Source: Hamadaea sp.
GTDB lineage: Bacteria > Actinomycetota > Actinomycetes > Mycobacteriales > Micromonosporaceae
NCBI RefSeq assembly: GCF_013362815.1
Contig: NZ_JABFVK010000096.1
Coordinates: 1 to 45,130 of the forward strand
DNA: 45,130 nt
Direction of reading: 5' to 3'
Position numbers and translations under genes: made by a program. Below are positions 39,785-45,096 of this stretch, in pieces (positions within the stretch are counted from its first letter, which is position 1; every line of letters starts with the position of its first letter). Below the pieces are notes generated by a model that searched no databases, was not told the DNA's origin, and worked only from the letters and a program-made list of their open reading frames with translations.

Positions 39785-40006
39785 CTACTTGGCGGCCTTG
39801 CCGACCTTGGCGTACTTCGCCTGGAACTTGGCCACGCGGCCGGCGGTGTCCAGGACACGCTGCTTGCCGGTGTAGAACGGGTGGCACTCGCTGCAGGACT
39901 CCGCGTGGATCTGACCGTTCTTGGCGGTGCTGCGGGTCGTGAACGAGTTGCCGCAGGAGCACGTGACGGTGGTCACGTTGTACTCCGGGTGGATACCAGA
40001 CTTCAT
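39785..40006 (-). CDS. rpmE: 50S ribosomal protein L31, zinc-binding form
   Basis: A 73-residue L31 ([22 protein letters not shown], then [26 protein letters not shown]; given in part). The four Cys (C-x-C and C-x-x-C) mark the zinc-dependent paralogue, which is usually replaced by a Cys-free form when zinc is scarce. It is separated from prfA by 88 bp and is divergent from the RNA-repair operon. Confidence 0.96.
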
Positions 40007-40214
40007 AGCCTCAGGTCCTCTCATGGCTGTGCGCTGGGTCGCCGTCGACGCCTCCTCAGGTACCGGAAAGCTCGGGCGTGAACCAGCGCCCCGGCGGTTG
40101 CCGGGCCGGTTGTCCATCTTGCCACGCGCCCCAATTGAGATGCGCAGCAGGTGACGAGATCGATAACGTGACGGCCCCTTCTGCTATTCCGCCACCTCTC
40201 GAAAGGGCCCGATT
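40007..40214. promoter_or_regulatory. Divergent promoter region, rpmE / RNA-repair operon
   Basis: 208 bp without a gene. On the plus strand GGCCC (40173–40177) can pair with GGGCC (40205–40209) right at the GAAAGGG Shine–Dalgarno of the ligase gene, with two more A–T pairs after one mismatch. That could hide the ribosome site. No clear -35/-10 pair could be placed with confidence for either direction. Confidence 0.35.
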
Positions 40215-41291
40215 GTGGTCACGCTCACCGACCTCTTCCCGGCGGGCGCGCTCCAGGCTGCGCTCGACGCGGGCTTCCTGCGCACTCAGGATCATCCCGA
40301 GCTGCCGTTGATGATCTACAACTACACGGAGAAGTGCGCATACGAGGGCGCCTGGGACGAAACCACCCTGATCTGCCGAGGACTCATCGTCCATGCCCAG
40401 ACCGGCGAGGTCCTGGCGCGGCCGTACCGGAAGTTCTTCAACCACGGCCAGCCCGGCGCGCCGACCCTTGCGCTCGACGAGGCGGTCGAGGTCACCGACA
40501 AGGCGGACGGCTCGCTCGGCGTCCTCTACCCGGTGCCTGACGGGTACGCCGTCGCCACCCGGGGCTCGTTCGCCTCCGATCAGGCGGTTCGGGCGACCGC
40601 GCTGCTGCGCAAGCGGTACCCGGACTGGACTCCGCCGCCCGGTCAGACGGTTCTCTTCGAGATCATCTACCCCGAGAACCGGATCGTGGTCGACTATGGG
40701 GGCATGGAGGATCTCGTCCTGCTGGGCGCGGTGGACGTCGAGTCCGGCCGCTCGCTCTCCCCGGCCGAGGTCGCCTGGCCGGGCCCGAAGGTCGAGACTT
40801 TCGCGTACGCCACCTTCGGCGCGGCGCTGGCTGCCCCGGCTCGGCCGAACCGGGAGGGCCTGGTCGTCCACGCCCCCGCCACCGGTGAGCGCGTGAAGAT
40901 CAAGTACGCCGACTACCTCCGCCTGCACAAGATCGTCACGGGACTGACCTCCCGTTCGGTCTGGGAGGCGCTGGTGGCCGGGGCGACCGTCGCCGAGGTA
41001 TGCGAGCCGCTGCCCGACGAGTTCCACAGCTGGGCTCGGGACGTGGCCGACCGGCTGCACGCTTCCGTCGATGCCGGAGTGGCCGAGGTCGAGCGGGCGT
41101 TCGGCGAGATCGTGGCGGGCCTGCCAGAGGGCTTCAGCCGCAAGGACTTCGCCCTCGTGGCGGGCCGGCACCACCTGCGGGGTCTGCTGTTCGCCCGGCT
41201 CGACGGCAAGGATCTCCGGCCCGCCCTCTGGCAGGCGGCCAAGCCGGTCGCCGGCGAGACGCCCCATGGAAGGTCGTTCGATGACGAATGA
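40215..41291 (+). CDS. RNA ligase, T4 Rnl1 type
   Basis: A 358-residue ATP-dependent RNA ligase, close in length to T4 Rnl1 (374). Nucleotidyltransferase motif I is KADGS with the AMP-accepting Lys96; RPYRKFFNHGQ before it is typical of Rnl1. Motif Ia/III region TRGSF (115–119), motif IIIa FEIIYPENRIVVDY (148–161), motif IV EGLVVHA (214–220) and motif V KIKYADYLRLH (from 228) are all intact. The C-terminal helical domain (about 235–345) would give RNA specificity. The family seals 3'-OH and 5'-phosphate ends of broken RNA such as tRNA anticodon loops. GTG start with GAAAGGG upstream. It overlaps the next gene by 11 bp. Confidence 0.92.
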   Translation: MVTLTDLFPAGALQAALDAGFLRTQDHPELPLMIYNYTEKCAYEGAWDETTLICRGLIVHAQTGEVLARPYRKFFNHGQPGAPTLALDEAVEVTDKADGSLGVLYPVPDGYAVATRGSFASDQAVRATALLRKRYPDWTPPPGQTVLFEIIYPENRIVVDYGGMEDLVLLGAVDVESGRSLSPAEVAWPGPKVETFAYATFGAALAAPARPNREGLVVHAPATGERVKIKYADYLRLHKIVTGLTSRSVWEALVAGATVAEVCEPLPDEFHSWARDVADRLHASVDAGVAEVERAFGEIVAGLPEGFSRKDFALVAGRHHLRGLLFARLDGKDLRPALWQAAKPVAGETPHGRSFDDE

Positions 41292-41985
41292 CGCGGTGCT
41301 TCGGGAAGGCAACGCGGTGCTTTTGGAGGGCATCGTCGGGTCGACGGCGTACGGCCTGGCCGGTCCTCAGTCCGATGTGGACCGGCTGGGTGTCTTCGCC
41401 GCGCCCACGGTTGCCTTCCACGGACTGCACCCGCCCCAGGAGTCCGTCGTTGAGCACGATCCGGACCGGACGCTGCACGAAGCCGGGAAGTACTGCCGTC
41501 TGGCGCTCTCCGGCAATCCCACCGCCATCGAGCTGCTCTGGCTGCCCGACGAGCTCTACGAGGTGCGTACGCCGCTCGGCGACGAGCTGATCGGGCTCCG
41601 GTCGGCGTTCCTCTCGGCGTCCCGAGTGCGCGACGCCTTCGTCGGGTACGCCTCCCAGCAGCTCACCCGCCTCACCAGCAAACGGCGTACGGGCAACTGG
41701 CTGGATCGGCGCGCGGCCAAGCACGCCCGGCACATGTTGCGCCTGATCGACCAGGGATTGGCGCTCTACGAGACCGGGGTGCTGCCGATCCGGCTCGCCG
41801 ACCCCGCTAGGTACCTCGATTTCGGTCTGCACGTCGAGGCCGACCCCAGCCTGGCCGGGCCGGTGCTCGAAGAGGCCCGGGAACGGTTCGCCGCCGCGCG
41901 TACCGTTCTCCCGGAAGAGCCCGACGAGGCGGCGGTCGAACGCTGGCTGCTGCGCGTACGCGCTTTCTATCTGGATGGAGACTGA
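41281..41985 (+). CDS. RlaP-like nucleotidyltransferase (polymerase beta fold)
   Basis: A 234-residue protein with the polymerase-beta-type nucleotidyltransferase motif GSTAYGLAGPQSDVDRLGV (Gly20-Ser21, then Asp32-x-Asp34). It then runs through a helical domain (KYCRLALSGNPTAIELLWLPD, and RRAAKHARHMLRLIDQG). It matches the RlaP-type family that comparative genomics by Burroughs and Aravind tied to RNA ligases and proposed to restore or modify ends during RNA repair; the actual reaction has not been shown to my knowledge. Its ATG lies within the end of the ligase gene (ATGACGAATGA), and its TGA overlaps the next ATG, so all three genes are coupled. Confidence 0.85.
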   Translation: MTNDAVLREGNAVLLEGIVGSTAYGLAGPQSDVDRLGVFAAPTVAFHGLHPPQESVVEHDPDRTLHEAGKYCRLALSGNPTAIELLWLPDELYEVRTPLGDELIGLRSAFLSASRVRDAFVGYASQQLTRLTSKRRTGNWLDRRAAKHARHMLRLIDQGLALYETGVLPIRLADPARYLDFGLHVEADPSLAGPVLEEARERFAAARTVLPEEPDEAAVERWLLRVRAFYLDGD

Positions 41986-42872
41986 TGCGTACCCCCACCC
42001 TCACGATCACCCGAGGCCTGCCCGGCTCCGGGAAGACCACCTGGGCGAAGGCTCAGCAGCCGAAGGCGACCCGGGTCAACCGAGACGACCTGCGGGCGAT
42101 GCTGCACGGCGGCCGGCTGGGCGAGTCGTGGGCGGAGAACCAGGTCACGATGGCCCACCGGGCGTCGATCGAGGCCCTGCTGCGCGCCGGGGTCGACGTC
42201 ATCTGCGACGACACCAACCTACGGTCCCGCTACGTCCGGGAACTCGCCGACCTCGGGATGGCCTGCGGAGCCGCTGTCGTCGTCGAGGACTTCACCGGCG
42301 TACCGCTGGAGGTGTGCATCGAACGCGACGCCGGGCGACCGAACCCGGTCGGCGAGGAGGCGATCCGAGCCATGCACGCCCGCTACCTGGCGGGCAAGCG
42401 AACGCGGCTGGACCTGCCCGTGGCCGCGCCTACAGCGGCCTATGAGCCGCCCGCGGACCGGCCGAGCGCGATCCTCGTCGACCTCGACGGGACGGTGGCC
42501 CTGATGGGCGACCGCTCGCCCTACGACGTGACCCGGGTGCACCTGGACTCGCCCAACGAACCCGTCATCGCGGCGGTACGCGCCATGCACGCCGCCGGGC
42601 ACACCATCGTCTACTGCTCCGGCCGGACCGACGACGGCCGGGCGAAGACGGAGGCCTGGCTCGACAAGCACGTCGGCGTCCCGTACGCCGGCCTCTACAT
42701 GCGAGCGACCGGCGACAGCCGGAAGGACTCGGTGGTGAAGCGTGAACTGTTCGAGCAGCACATCCGCAGCTCGTTCCGAGTGACCTGCGTCTTCGACGAT
42801 CGCAACCAAGTCGTACGCATGTGGCGAGACCTGGGCCTCACAGTCTTCCAAGTAGCCGAAGGCAACTTCTAA
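41985..42872 (+). CDS. Polynucleotide kinase/3'-phosphatase, T4 Pnkp type
   Basis: A 295-residue two-domain RNA end-healing enzyme. The kinase domain (1–150) has P-loop GLPGSGKTTW (11–20), NRDDLR (33–38, with the general-base Asp35 as in T4 Pnkp), CDDTNL and a lid Arg in ERDAGRP. The phosphatase domain (160–295) is a HAD-type acyl-phosphatase with DLDGT (Asp166, Asp168), SPYD, CSGR, RKD (Lys247) and FDDRNQVVRMW. Length, order and motifs parallel T4 Pnkp (301 residues), which removes 3' and 2',3'-cyclic phosphate and adds 5'-phosphate. This prepares ends for the ligase two genes upstream. Confidence 0.95.
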   Translation: MRTPTLTITRGLPGSGKTTWAKAQQPKATRVNRDDLRAMLHGGRLGESWAENQVTMAHRASIEALLRAGVDVICDDTNLRSRYVRELADLGMACGAAVVVEDFTGVPLEVCIERDAGRPNPVGEEAIRAMHARYLAGKRTRLDLPVAAPTAAYEPPADRPSAILVDLDGTVALMGDRSPYDVTRVHLDSPNEPVIAAVRAMHAAGHTIVYCSGRTDDGRAKTEAWLDKHVGVPYAGLYMRATGDSRKDSVVKRELFEQHIRSSFRVTCVFDDRNQVVRMWRDLGLTVFQVAEGNF

Positions 42873-42921: not shown

Positions 42922-42979
42922 AAGTTGACCTTGGCGACTTTCGGTCGCCATAGCGACCCAAACTAGCCAAGGTCAACTT
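42922..42979. repeat. Nested inverted repeat after the RNA-repair operon
   Basis: AAGTTGACCTTGGC (42922–42935) and GCCAAGGTCAACTT (42966–42979) are perfect reverse complements. Between them GGTCGC-CATA-GCGACC forms a second hairpin. The place, 50 bp after the Pnkp-like stop and before rho's terminator, fits a terminator of the repair operon or an interspersed palindromic element. The stretch 42980–43117 that follows shows nothing I can name. Confidence 0.65.
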
Positions 42980-43117: not shown

Positions 43118-43183
43118 AGAGGGGGATGGGTTCCCACGGAGGGATCAAGCCTGACCGCCCTCCGTGGGAACCCATCCCCCTCT
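43118..43183. terminator. 26-bp perfect hairpin after rho
   Basis: Arms 43118–43143 and 43158–43183 are perfectly complementary over 26 bp, with a 14-nt loop. The arms begin AGAGGGGGATGG and include TTCCCACGG. The hairpin starts 11 bp after the rho stop codon. It lacks a T-run, but its length makes it the strongest terminator-like structure in the window, and it could serve both the repair operon and rho. Confidence 0.75.
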
Positions 43184-43194
43184 GTTCGCGAGGA

Positions 43195-45096
43195 CTACTC
43201 CCCAGGAGTCGTCTTAGCGATCTGCATGAGGAACTCGATGTTGGTCCGCGTCTGCTTGAGCTTGTCGAGCAGAAGGTCCAGCGCGGCCTGCGAATCCAGC
43301 GAGTGCAGGACCTTGCGGAGCTTGTGGACGATCGCCAGCTCCTCCGGCGCGAGCAGGATCTCTTCCTTACGCGTACCGGACGGGTCGATGTCGATCGCCG
43401 GGAAGATGCGCTTGTCGGCGATCTTCCGGTCGAGCTTGAGCTCCGCGTTGCCGGTGCCCTTGAACTCCTCGAAGATGACCGTGTCCATCATGGAGCCCGT
43501 CTCCACCAGCGCCGTGGCGATGATGGTGAGCGAGCCGCCGTTCTCGATGTTGCGGGCGGCGCCGAGGAAGCGCTTGGGCGGGTAGAGCGCGGTCGAGTCG
43601 ATACCGCCGGAGAGGATGCGGCCCGAGGCCGGCGCGGCCAGGTTGTACGCCCGGCCGAGACGGGTGATCGAGTCCAGCAGCACGACCACGTCGTGTCCGA
43701 GCTCGACGAGTCGCTTGGCGCGCTCGATGGCCAGCTCGGCGACGGTGGTGTGGTCCATCGGCGGACGGTCGAAGGTGGAGGCGATGACCTCACCCTTGAC
43801 CGAGCGCTGCATGTCGGTGACCTCTTCCGGGCGCTCGTCGACGAGCACGACCATCAGGTGGGTCTCCGGGTTGTTGTGGGTGATCGCGTTGGCGATCGCC
43901 TGCAGCACCATGGTCTTACCCGCCTTCGGCGGGGAGACGATCAGCGCACGCTGGCCCTTGCCGATCGGCATCACCAGGTCGATGACCCGGGTGGTGAGCA
44001 CGTTGGGCTCGGTCTCCAGCCGCAGGCGATCCTGCGGGTAGAGCGGGGTCAGCTTGTAGAACTCGGGGCGGCGCTTGGCCTCCTCCGCTTCCATGCCGTT
44101 GATCGTGTCGAGCCGGACCAGCGGGTTGTACTTGTCGCGGCGGCCTTCACCCTCGCGGGCGGACCGAACCGCACCGGTGATGGCGTCACCGCGGCGCAGG
44201 CCGTACTTCTTGACCTGAGACATCGCGACGTAGACGTCGTTCGGCCCGGAGAGGTAGCCGCTCGTGCGGACGAACGCGTAGTTCTCCAGCACGTCGACGA
44301 TGCCGGCGACCGGGATGAGCACCTCGTCCTCGTTGACCTGCGGCTCGCGCGGGCTGTCGCCGTCGCGCTCGTTACGGCCACGGCGACGGTCCCGGAAGCG
44401 GCTGCGCCGTCCACGGCGGCCGCCGTCCTCGTCGTCGTCGAAGTTGCGATCGCGATCGTTGCCCCGCTCGCCGCGCGGCTTGTCGTCGCCGTCGCCGTCG
44501 CCGGACTGGTCGCGGTTGCCCCGTTCGTTGCGCTCGCCACGCTCAGTGCGCTCGCCACGCTCGTTGCCGCTGCGGTCGCTGTTGCGCTCGCGACGGTCCC
44601 GGCGCTCGCGCTGCGGGCGTTCGGCCGCTTCGGCGCGGCCTTCCTCCTGGGCGGCCGGTGCCGCAGCGGTCTCGGCCGACTGGGCCGTGTCACGGGACCG
44701 GTCGGTGTCGCGAGTCCGCTCGGCGGGCGGACCGGCGGCGCGGCTGGCCCGACGCGGACGCTCCCGCTCGGCCGGGCGCTCGGCGGGCGCTTCCGTGGTC
44801 GTGGCGGCCGCGTCGCGTACCTCGGCTCGCACCTCATCGCGGGTGTTGCCGGCGGTGGCGGCTACCTCGGCGCGCGGCCGAGGCGTACCGGCTTGACGCT
44901 CCTGAATGGCGGAGATGAGCTCGCCCTTGCGCATCCGGGCGGTGCCCGAGATGCCGAGCGAGGCGGCCATGCTCTGCAGTTCGGGGAGCAGCATCGCTGT
45001 CAGGCCGCTGCCCGACCGGCGGCGCCGGGCGGTGCCGGCGGAGGCGTCGTCAGCGACGGTGGAGACATCCGACGTGGTGTCGGTGGTGTCGCTCAA
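43195..45096 (-). CDS. rho: Transcription termination factor Rho
   Basis: A 633-residue Rho. After the N-terminal Rho_N helices (MLLPELQSMAASLGISGTARMRKGELISAIQE, in part) there is a long low-complexity insert rich in Arg, Glu, Asp and Asn (about 70–265), normal for actinobacterial Rho and absent from E. coli (419 residues). The cold-shock RNA-binding domain (VAGIVDVLENYAFVRTSGYL, GPNDVYV) follows, then the ATPase with Walker A PPKAGKT, VDERPEEVTDM (catalytic Glu), Walker B VVVLLDSITR and the secondary RNA site GSLTIIATALVETGS. The start codon is TTG, with the GGAAGGA Shine–Dalgarno 8 nt before it. Confidence 0.96.
   Translation of the reverse strand: MSDTTDTTSDVSTVADDASAGTARRRRSGSGLTAMLLPELQSMAASLGISGTARMRKGELISAIQERQAGTPRPRAEVAATAGNTRDEVRAEVRDAAATTTEAPAERPAERERPRRASRAAGPPAERTRDTDRSRDTAQSAETAAAPAAQEEGRAEAAERPQRERRDRRERNSDRSGNERGERTERGERNERGNRDQSGDGDGDDKPRGERGNDRDRNFDDDEDGGRRGRRSRFRDRRRGRNERDGDSPREPQVNEDEVLIPVAGIVDVLENYAFVRTSGYLSGPNDVYVAMSQVKKYGLRRGDAITGAVRSAREGEGRRDKYNPLVRLDTINGMEAEEAKRRPEFYKLTPLYPQDRLRLETEPNVLTTRVIDLVMPIGKGQRALIVSPPKAGKTMVLQAIANAITHNNPETHLMVVLVDERPEEVTDMQRSVKGEVIASTFDRPPMDHTTVAELAIERAKRLVELGHDVVVLLDSITRLGRAYNLAAPASGRILSGGIDSTALYPPKRFLGAARNIENGGSLTIIATALVETGSMMDTVIFEEFKGTGNAELKLDRKIADKRIFPAIDIDPSGTRKEEILLAPEELAIVHKLRKVLHSLDSQAALDLLLDKLKQTRTNIEFLMQIAKTTPGE

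Follow-up and report, generated by a model that had tools for sequence, protein, structure and literature searches.

RNA repair of the type encoded by phage T4 is best known as a counter-defense of phages. The RtcB(-PrfH) systems also serve RNA repair, sharing this general task but using a ligase of another fold and chemistry, and sets composed of a ligase, a nucleotidyltransferase of the RlaP family and end-healing enzymes have reportedly been described by Burroughs and Aravind in 2016. Here we describe a locus from Hamadaea sp. (Micromonosporaceae), located in a stretch of 45,130 nucleotides (contig NZ_JABFVK010000096.1, called the window hereafter), in which three consecutive open reading frames (ORFs) on the + strand at positions 40215-42872 are flanked by rpmE and rho. 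These encode a T4 Rnl1-type ATP-dependent RNA ligase (LIG), an RlaP family nucleotidyltransferase (NT) and a T4 Pnkp-type 5′-kinase/3′-phosphatase (PNK). With a probability of roughly 0.72, we consider LIG, NT and PNK to constitute a chromosomally resident kit for the healing and sealing of RNA. The operon is intact and of a published kind, while its stably inherited site, the order of its assembly and a lead concerning RtcB are new; a literature search in open-licence papers yielded no published account of an RNA-repair locus between rpmE and rho.

According to the available part of the source, T4 Pnkp and Rnl1 reverse the cleavage caused by PrrC, and RloC, which removes the wobble nucleotide, could defy these two enzymes (PMC2610378). 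LIG and PNK match the same PHROG families as the T4 tRNA repair enzymes RnlA (Rnl1) and PseT (Pnkp) over the full length and share their catalytic residues. However, pseT and rnlA are separated by four annotated genes in T4, whose annotation shows no nucleotidyltransferase over the 30 kb that were read. In the Hamadaea operon, LIG and PNK are separated by NT only. Furthermore, the T4 pair is phage-borne, while LIG and PNK of Hamadaea are bacterial and vertically inherited. Sets of a ligase, an RlaP-type nucleotidyltransferase and end-healing enzymes have already been published and share the composition of the Hamadaea trio, an ATP-grasp ligase, RlaP and a kinase-phosphatase, in the accessible portion of the source, where the addition of nucleotides to broken RNA by RlaP is a prediction, as is the mending of nucleotide loss of the RloC kind (PMC7824862). 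In comparison to these sets, the Hamadaea trio has a stable site beside rpmE and an NT that appears to have been inserted into an older LIG-PNK pair. The bacterial Pnkp1-Rnl-Hen1 system, as far as the excerpt of its description goes, likewise contains a separate ligase and a T4 Pnkp homolog, with Hen1 being unlinked (PMC4411300); in contrast to this system, the Hamadaea ligase is of the Rnl1 type and an NT is part of the operon.

Domain composition and active sites of the three enzymes

LIG (40215..41291, + strand, 358 amino acids (aa), GTG start) scored 40.9 bits against the Pfam family PF09511 (RNA_lig_T4_1), which is above the curated cut-off of 28.3, and matched phrog_562, a family also matched by T4 RnlA, with an E-value of 6.8e-68. 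Its nearest solved structures by sequence in the PDB are chains of T4 RNA ligase 1 (best E-value 1.5e-9). Residues K96, D98, G99, E149, E214, G215, K228, and K230 are invariant in 33 aligned sequences, and we take them to be the lysine nucleophile and the motif III, IV, and V residues of nucleotidyltransferases. Against the NCBIfam equivalog of T4 RnlA (TIGR02308), LIG reached 45.1 bits and thus remained below the cut-off of 242.25. Judged by its sequence, LIG is a member of the T4 Rnl1 family outside the curated RnlA equivalog group, with a C-terminal domain that appears to have diverged from that of T4 RnlA; the match to phrog_562 reaches position 364/377, while the hhalign alignment to T4 RnlA stops at column 256. 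Two different ligases from other genomes are split by intein-like inserts near the catalytic KxDGS motif, with insertion points that nearly coincide (query residue 99-101), one in Dactylosporangium fulvum (L053:8423-10816, - strand) and one in the Actinomycetes metagenome-assembled genome RYN_227 (L259:4615-6771, + strand). Both inserts scored above the cut-off for the LAGLIDADG_2 endonuclease and below the one for the intein splicing profile. The suspicion that the ligase of genome G029 is a broken gene was dismissed, since its stop codon stands at the ordinary end.

NT (41281..41985, + strand, 234 aa), which shares 11 bp with LIG, scored 69.5 bits against PF10127 (RlaP; cut-off 23), with an additional match to phrog_388. 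The residues G20, S21, S31, D32, and D34 of its GS...D-x-D active site are invariant in 29 aligned sequences. No solved relative was found by sequence in the PDB, where the single match was at chance level (E-value 0.75). Structural comparison (VIA) of an AlphaFold model with a mean predicted local distance difference test (pLDDT) score of 85.2 placed HalB of Hailong first, followed by aminoglycoside nucleotidyltransferases and HEPN-type helical bundles.

PNK (41985..42872, + strand, 295 aa), which overlaps NT by 1 bp, consists according to Pfam of an N-terminal kinase (PF13671 AAA_33, residues 6-134, 75 bits) followed by a HAD phosphatase (PF25109 HAD_PNKP, residues 160-295, 190.8 bits), both above cut-off. 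Like T4 PseT, it matches phrog_505 over the full length (residues 5-295). Among solved structures, those closest to it in sequence belong to Pnkp1 (4xrp, the best match, E-value 6.4e-39) and T4 Pnkp, while the score against the bacterial Pnkp family TIGR04075 was 18.7 bits and below the cut-off of 750. In an alignment of 14 rows, which took in T4 PseT and 5 of the 19 genomes having only PNK at the rpmE site (see below), K17, D34, R37, D166, D168, R177, R214, D248, D271, and D272 are invariant.

All these observations bear out the original prediction, made from the letters of the window alone, in its identification of the three enzymes and in reading the operon as one for RNA repair, on the basis of Pfam and PHROG profiles and intact motifs. 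The three ORFs, their overlaps of 11 and 1 bp and their position between rpmE and rho are as it had stated, and the motifs it had listed (K96 in KADGS of LIG, GS 20-21 and SDVD 31-34 of NT, GLPGSGKT and DLDGT of PNK) are present, with the catalytic residues being invariant in aligned relatives. Orthologs of LIG, NT and PNK occur in the same order in the Hamadaea sp. genome from which the window stems and in the three other Hamadaea genomes drawn. With ATG/GTG starts, LIG and NT overlap in all four of them and NT and PNK in three of four. Pairwise ratios of nonsynonymous to synonymous substitution rates (dN/dS) among the four genomes range from 0.12 to 0.36 for LIG, NT, and PNK, and all three genes are under purifying selection. 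Since the gene order is kept in four Hamadaea genomes and the dN/dS values are low, the trio is not a product of chance.

As for the chemistry, PNK would convert 2′,3′-cyclic phosphate and 5′-OH ends to 3′-OH and 5′-phosphate by means of its C-terminal phosphatase and N-terminal kinase, and LIG would then seal the healed RNA ends with ATP. In Hamadaea, NT would most likely act ahead of this joining step and restore nucleotides missing from the 3′-end. The reactions proposed for PNK and LIG are those of the T4 Pnkp and Rnl1 families, to which they are assigned by analogy, whereas the reaction of NT is probably that of RlaP, whose own activity is a prediction.

Distribution and history of the rpmE site

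The distribution of the genes was followed in a first draw of 121 Micromonosporaceae genomes and in a second draw of 119 others. Counts of the rpmE site refer to 106 genomes of the first draw in which the rpmE-prfA region was read and which were placed on the tree; the other 15 comprise 12 without a usable locus and 3 without prfA. LIG was found in 43/121 genomes and full-length PNK in 63/121, and there was no LIG genome without full-length PNK (0/43). At the rpmE site, 36 genomes have LIG and PNK, 19 have PNK alone, 4 (all Hamadaea) have LIG, NT, and PNK, and 47 have none of them. rpmE adjoins the site in 106/106 genomes, and rho is located in the same stretch in 98/106, with the other 8 stretches ending before rho. 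Other genes may separate PNK from rho, and the LIG-PNK pair is reversed in one genome (L065). A random scatter of the genes in related genomes, which would have spoken against the original prediction, is not seen for LIG and PNK, as LIG is always accompanied by PNK and the pair is located beside rpmE in 40/106 genomes. However, PNK occupies the site alone in 19/106 genomes, and the close NT homologs elsewhere in the family occur without LIG. PNK is retained without LIG in, for example, L096, L100, L101, L106, and L110, and both of its active sites are intact in the five aligned sequences from such sites.

The trio at the rpmE site is confined to Hamadaea, where NT adjoins the RNA ligase in 4/4 genomes. 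Among 33 loci fetched around LIG in addition to the window, three are not beside rpmE. LIG-PNK-NT cassettes away from rpmE were found at L045 and L059, and at L050 NT-LIG-PNK lies on a contig too short to be placed relative to rpmE. The closest NTs outside of Hamadaea are Micromonosporaceae genes away from the rpmE site (57-67% identity). In 20 loci of such solo NTs, LIG was found within approximately 5 kb in none (0/20) and a PNK-type phosphatase part in 3/20, and eight of them (L117-L124, L133; judged by eye) share a neighborhood comprising a helix-turn-helix protein, a small membrane protein and an alpha/beta hydrolase. At L134:5002-6107, L135:4988-6093, and L127:5107-6200, the RlaP nucleotidyltransferase directly adjoins a match of about 420 bp to the phosphatase part of PNK, and the same pairing is present in the IMG/VR loci L296, L297, L299, L302, and L311. 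No LIG was found near any of these eight pairs, which might represent a two-gene module of nucleotidyltransferase and phosphatase.

In the trees, a single branch sets the LIG sequences of the rpmE site apart as a group (30 rows; SH-like approximate likelihood ratio test (SH-aLRT) 94), and the same is true of PNK (50 rows, SH-aLRT 86) and, for its part, of the Hamadaea NT (support 100/99). The trees of LIG and PNK were built in a quick mode and have outgroup branches that are long in some cases, and the one of LIG omits the intein-bearing LIG for reasons of coverage. Distances of both proteins track the distances between species (Mantel r of 0.77 for LIG and 0.70 for PNK, with 0/999 permutations as high). 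Since both form single clades at the site and their distances follow the species, the pair has been vertically inherited. At least eight changes in the state of LIG are forced by the starred branches of the species tree, where gain and loss are not separable. We infer that the LIG-PNK pair entered the rpmE site once, early in the Micromonosporaceae, that LIG was then lost several times and that NT was inserted once into the older pair on the Hamadaea stem. This order of assembly has PNK as the most retained gene, LIG always accompanied by PNK, and NT as the last to arrive. The original prediction had noted as unusual that a pair resembling phage genes occupies a housekeeping locus; the housekeeping site is confirmed, but the pair is better described as family-wide and vertically inherited, as seen from the clades and the Mantel correlations.

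Outside of the family, a search at class level, covering 394 genomes of which 3 are listed in Micromonosporaceae, found PNK in 20 (E ≤ 1e-30) and LIG in 19 (E ≤ 1e-15), each including the Hamadaea sp. window genome, and rpmE, prfA, and rho are absent from the stretches of all loci read outside of the family. The identities of phage homologs reach 51-52% in the case of NT and LIG, and up to 47% in that of PNK; for NT, the best values are 51% in named phages and 63% in IMG/VR contigs. LIG, NT, and PNK occur together in 7/35 NT loci (two gene orders) and in 16/80 LIG loci kept (three gene orders) from IMG/VR, although some of these "viral" loci may be bacterial, as the contig of L318/L397 has 110447 bases, the same as the bacterial contig G393:C44. 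Since the trio is found in IMG/VR contigs, the gene combination itself is not new. The models of PADLOC-DB 2.0.0 did not assign the three enzymes to a known anti-phage defense system, with no match at E ≤ 1 for LIG or NT and one match for PNK (13.5 bits, E-value 0.0049).

Relation to RtcB, ribotoxins and phages

RtcB is a possible alternative to the pair in Micromonosporaceae, and LIG, together with PNK, and canonical RtcB could be alternative general RNA ligases, with the presence of one allowing the loss of the other; we regard this explanation as possible, with the odds somewhat against it. Canonical RtcB ("type a", ~1,100 bp, 364-436 bits, with the boundaries of types a, b, c, and d set after the scores had been seen) is present in 70/121 genomes and negatively associated with LIG (both in 11 genomes, LIG only in 32, type a only in 59, neither in 19). 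For LIG at the rpmE site the corresponding numbers in 106 genomes are 10, 30, 53, and 13, and the second draw, in which any type of RtcB was counted at E ≤ 1e-90, gave 21, 20, 71, and 7 in 119 genomes. Within the genus group g30 of that draw, 16 genomes have both, 20 LIG only and 12 RtcB only. These raw counts ignore kinship. A model of correlated change yielded a likelihood ratio (LR) of 22.0 (25.0 with another fit), a value reached in 0/200 null simulations (maximum 12.8). However, an independent-pairs sign test gave no significant result: among 7 pairs, RtcB changed in the opposite sense in 3.5 and in the same sense in 0.2 (median p 0.25), and when the two traits were exchanged, the values for 15 pairs were 4.2 and 0.0 (median p 0.125). 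The LR falls to 12.7 without six low-quality genomes. Other trait pairs also raised the LR, namely LIG and RtcB type c (15.8) and LIG and solo NT (9.1 against a 95% null mark of 9.0, which indicates no clear link), and our main claim is not rested on this statistic for that reason.

Both ligases are, moreover, kept in Catellatospora (g17) in 7/7 genomes of the first and 4/4 of the second draw, while neither is present in 19 and 7 genomes of the two draws, respectively. A strict mutual exclusion is rejected by the 16 genomes of g30 that keep both. It also counts against an exchange of ligases that the Hamadaea sp. window genome itself contains a divergent RtcB paralog, a frame of 415 aa with the RtcB motifs kept, which among the matches listed is shared by two further Hamadaea genomes (3/4 in total) and many other genomes and has intact motifs in the three sequences aligned. 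The absence of RtcB noted by the original prediction accordingly applies to the surroundings of the operon, while in the genome as a whole only the canonical type is lacking. What remains is a lead with only moderate phylogenetic support, that genomes without canonical RtcB seldom lack LIG as well and that at least one of the two tends to be kept, a tendency that recurred in the second draw. The further-reaching proposal, that the ligase pair beside rpmE has turned into a general pathway of RNA sealing resident in the family and interchangeable with canonical RtcB, so that each ligase can disappear where the other persists, and that Hamadaea extended this pathway by a nucleotide-restoring enzyme, appears doubtful.

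A narrower form of the resident kit, and compatible with it, would be one directed against one specific ribotoxin or anticodon nuclease as a counter-toxin or counter-defense, with NT added in Hamadaea to reverse lesions of the RloC type in which a nucleotide is lost. The repair of PrrC damage by T4 Pnkp and Rnl1, the excision of the wobble nucleotide by RloC and the predicted restoration of a lost nucleotide by RlaP, each as given in the parts of the sources available (PMC2610378; PMC7824862), speak in favor of such a target, and so does the presence of trio cassettes in IMG/VR contigs. Nevertheless, a search for PF13166 (PrrC/RloC type), in which eight first-look candidates per genome were scored and other nuclease families were not searched, gave no match in the four Hamadaea genomes and a hit above cut-off in 1/121 genomes of the family, so that a resident PrrC/RloC partner was not found and the anticodon-nuclease target named in the original prediction is not supported so far. 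In addition, no toxin gene is linked to the trio, and genes engaged in an arms race would be expected to turn over, in contrast to the vertical descent observed at this housekeeping site. A specific toxin as the target can be put forward only tentatively.

T4 Pnkp also accepts DNA as a substrate, and phage homologs of all three genes exist, but that the enzymes act mainly on DNA in nick repair or that the trio was left behind by a phage and is decaying is very improbable, given that LIG belongs to the Rnl1 and not to a DNA-ligase family and that all three genes show purifying selection, intact motifs and housekeeping neighbors with vertical descent of LIG and PNK; the reading as a phage remnant in particular was rejected on the basis of the purifying selection and the LIG and PNK clades.

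Flanking features and implications for the family

Upstream of the operon, rpmE (ribosomal protein bL31; 39785..40117, - strand) is the divergent neighbor, with its likely start at M38 (~40006), and downstream rho (43195..45096, - strand) is convergent. An inverted repeat 3′ of PNK (42922..42979, 27-nt arms, 89%) is a possible terminator of the operon, although a terminator scan detected none of the T-run type after PNK. A second inverted repeat with perfect 26-nt arms and without a T run lies directly 3′ of rho (43118..43183) and may be the terminator of the rho gene. A scan for sigma-70 promoters yielded none, and Rfam gave zero matches in the window.

For the Micromonosporaceae, the relatives having the pair, PNK alone, the trio or none of the genes, together with the possible exchange with RtcB, provide a natural experiment, and the Hamadaea trio offers a small bacterial set for assaying the unproven reaction of RlaP. 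That genes of this type have been passed on vertically at a housekeeping site across the family suggests that soil actinobacteria have a constant demand for RNA repair.
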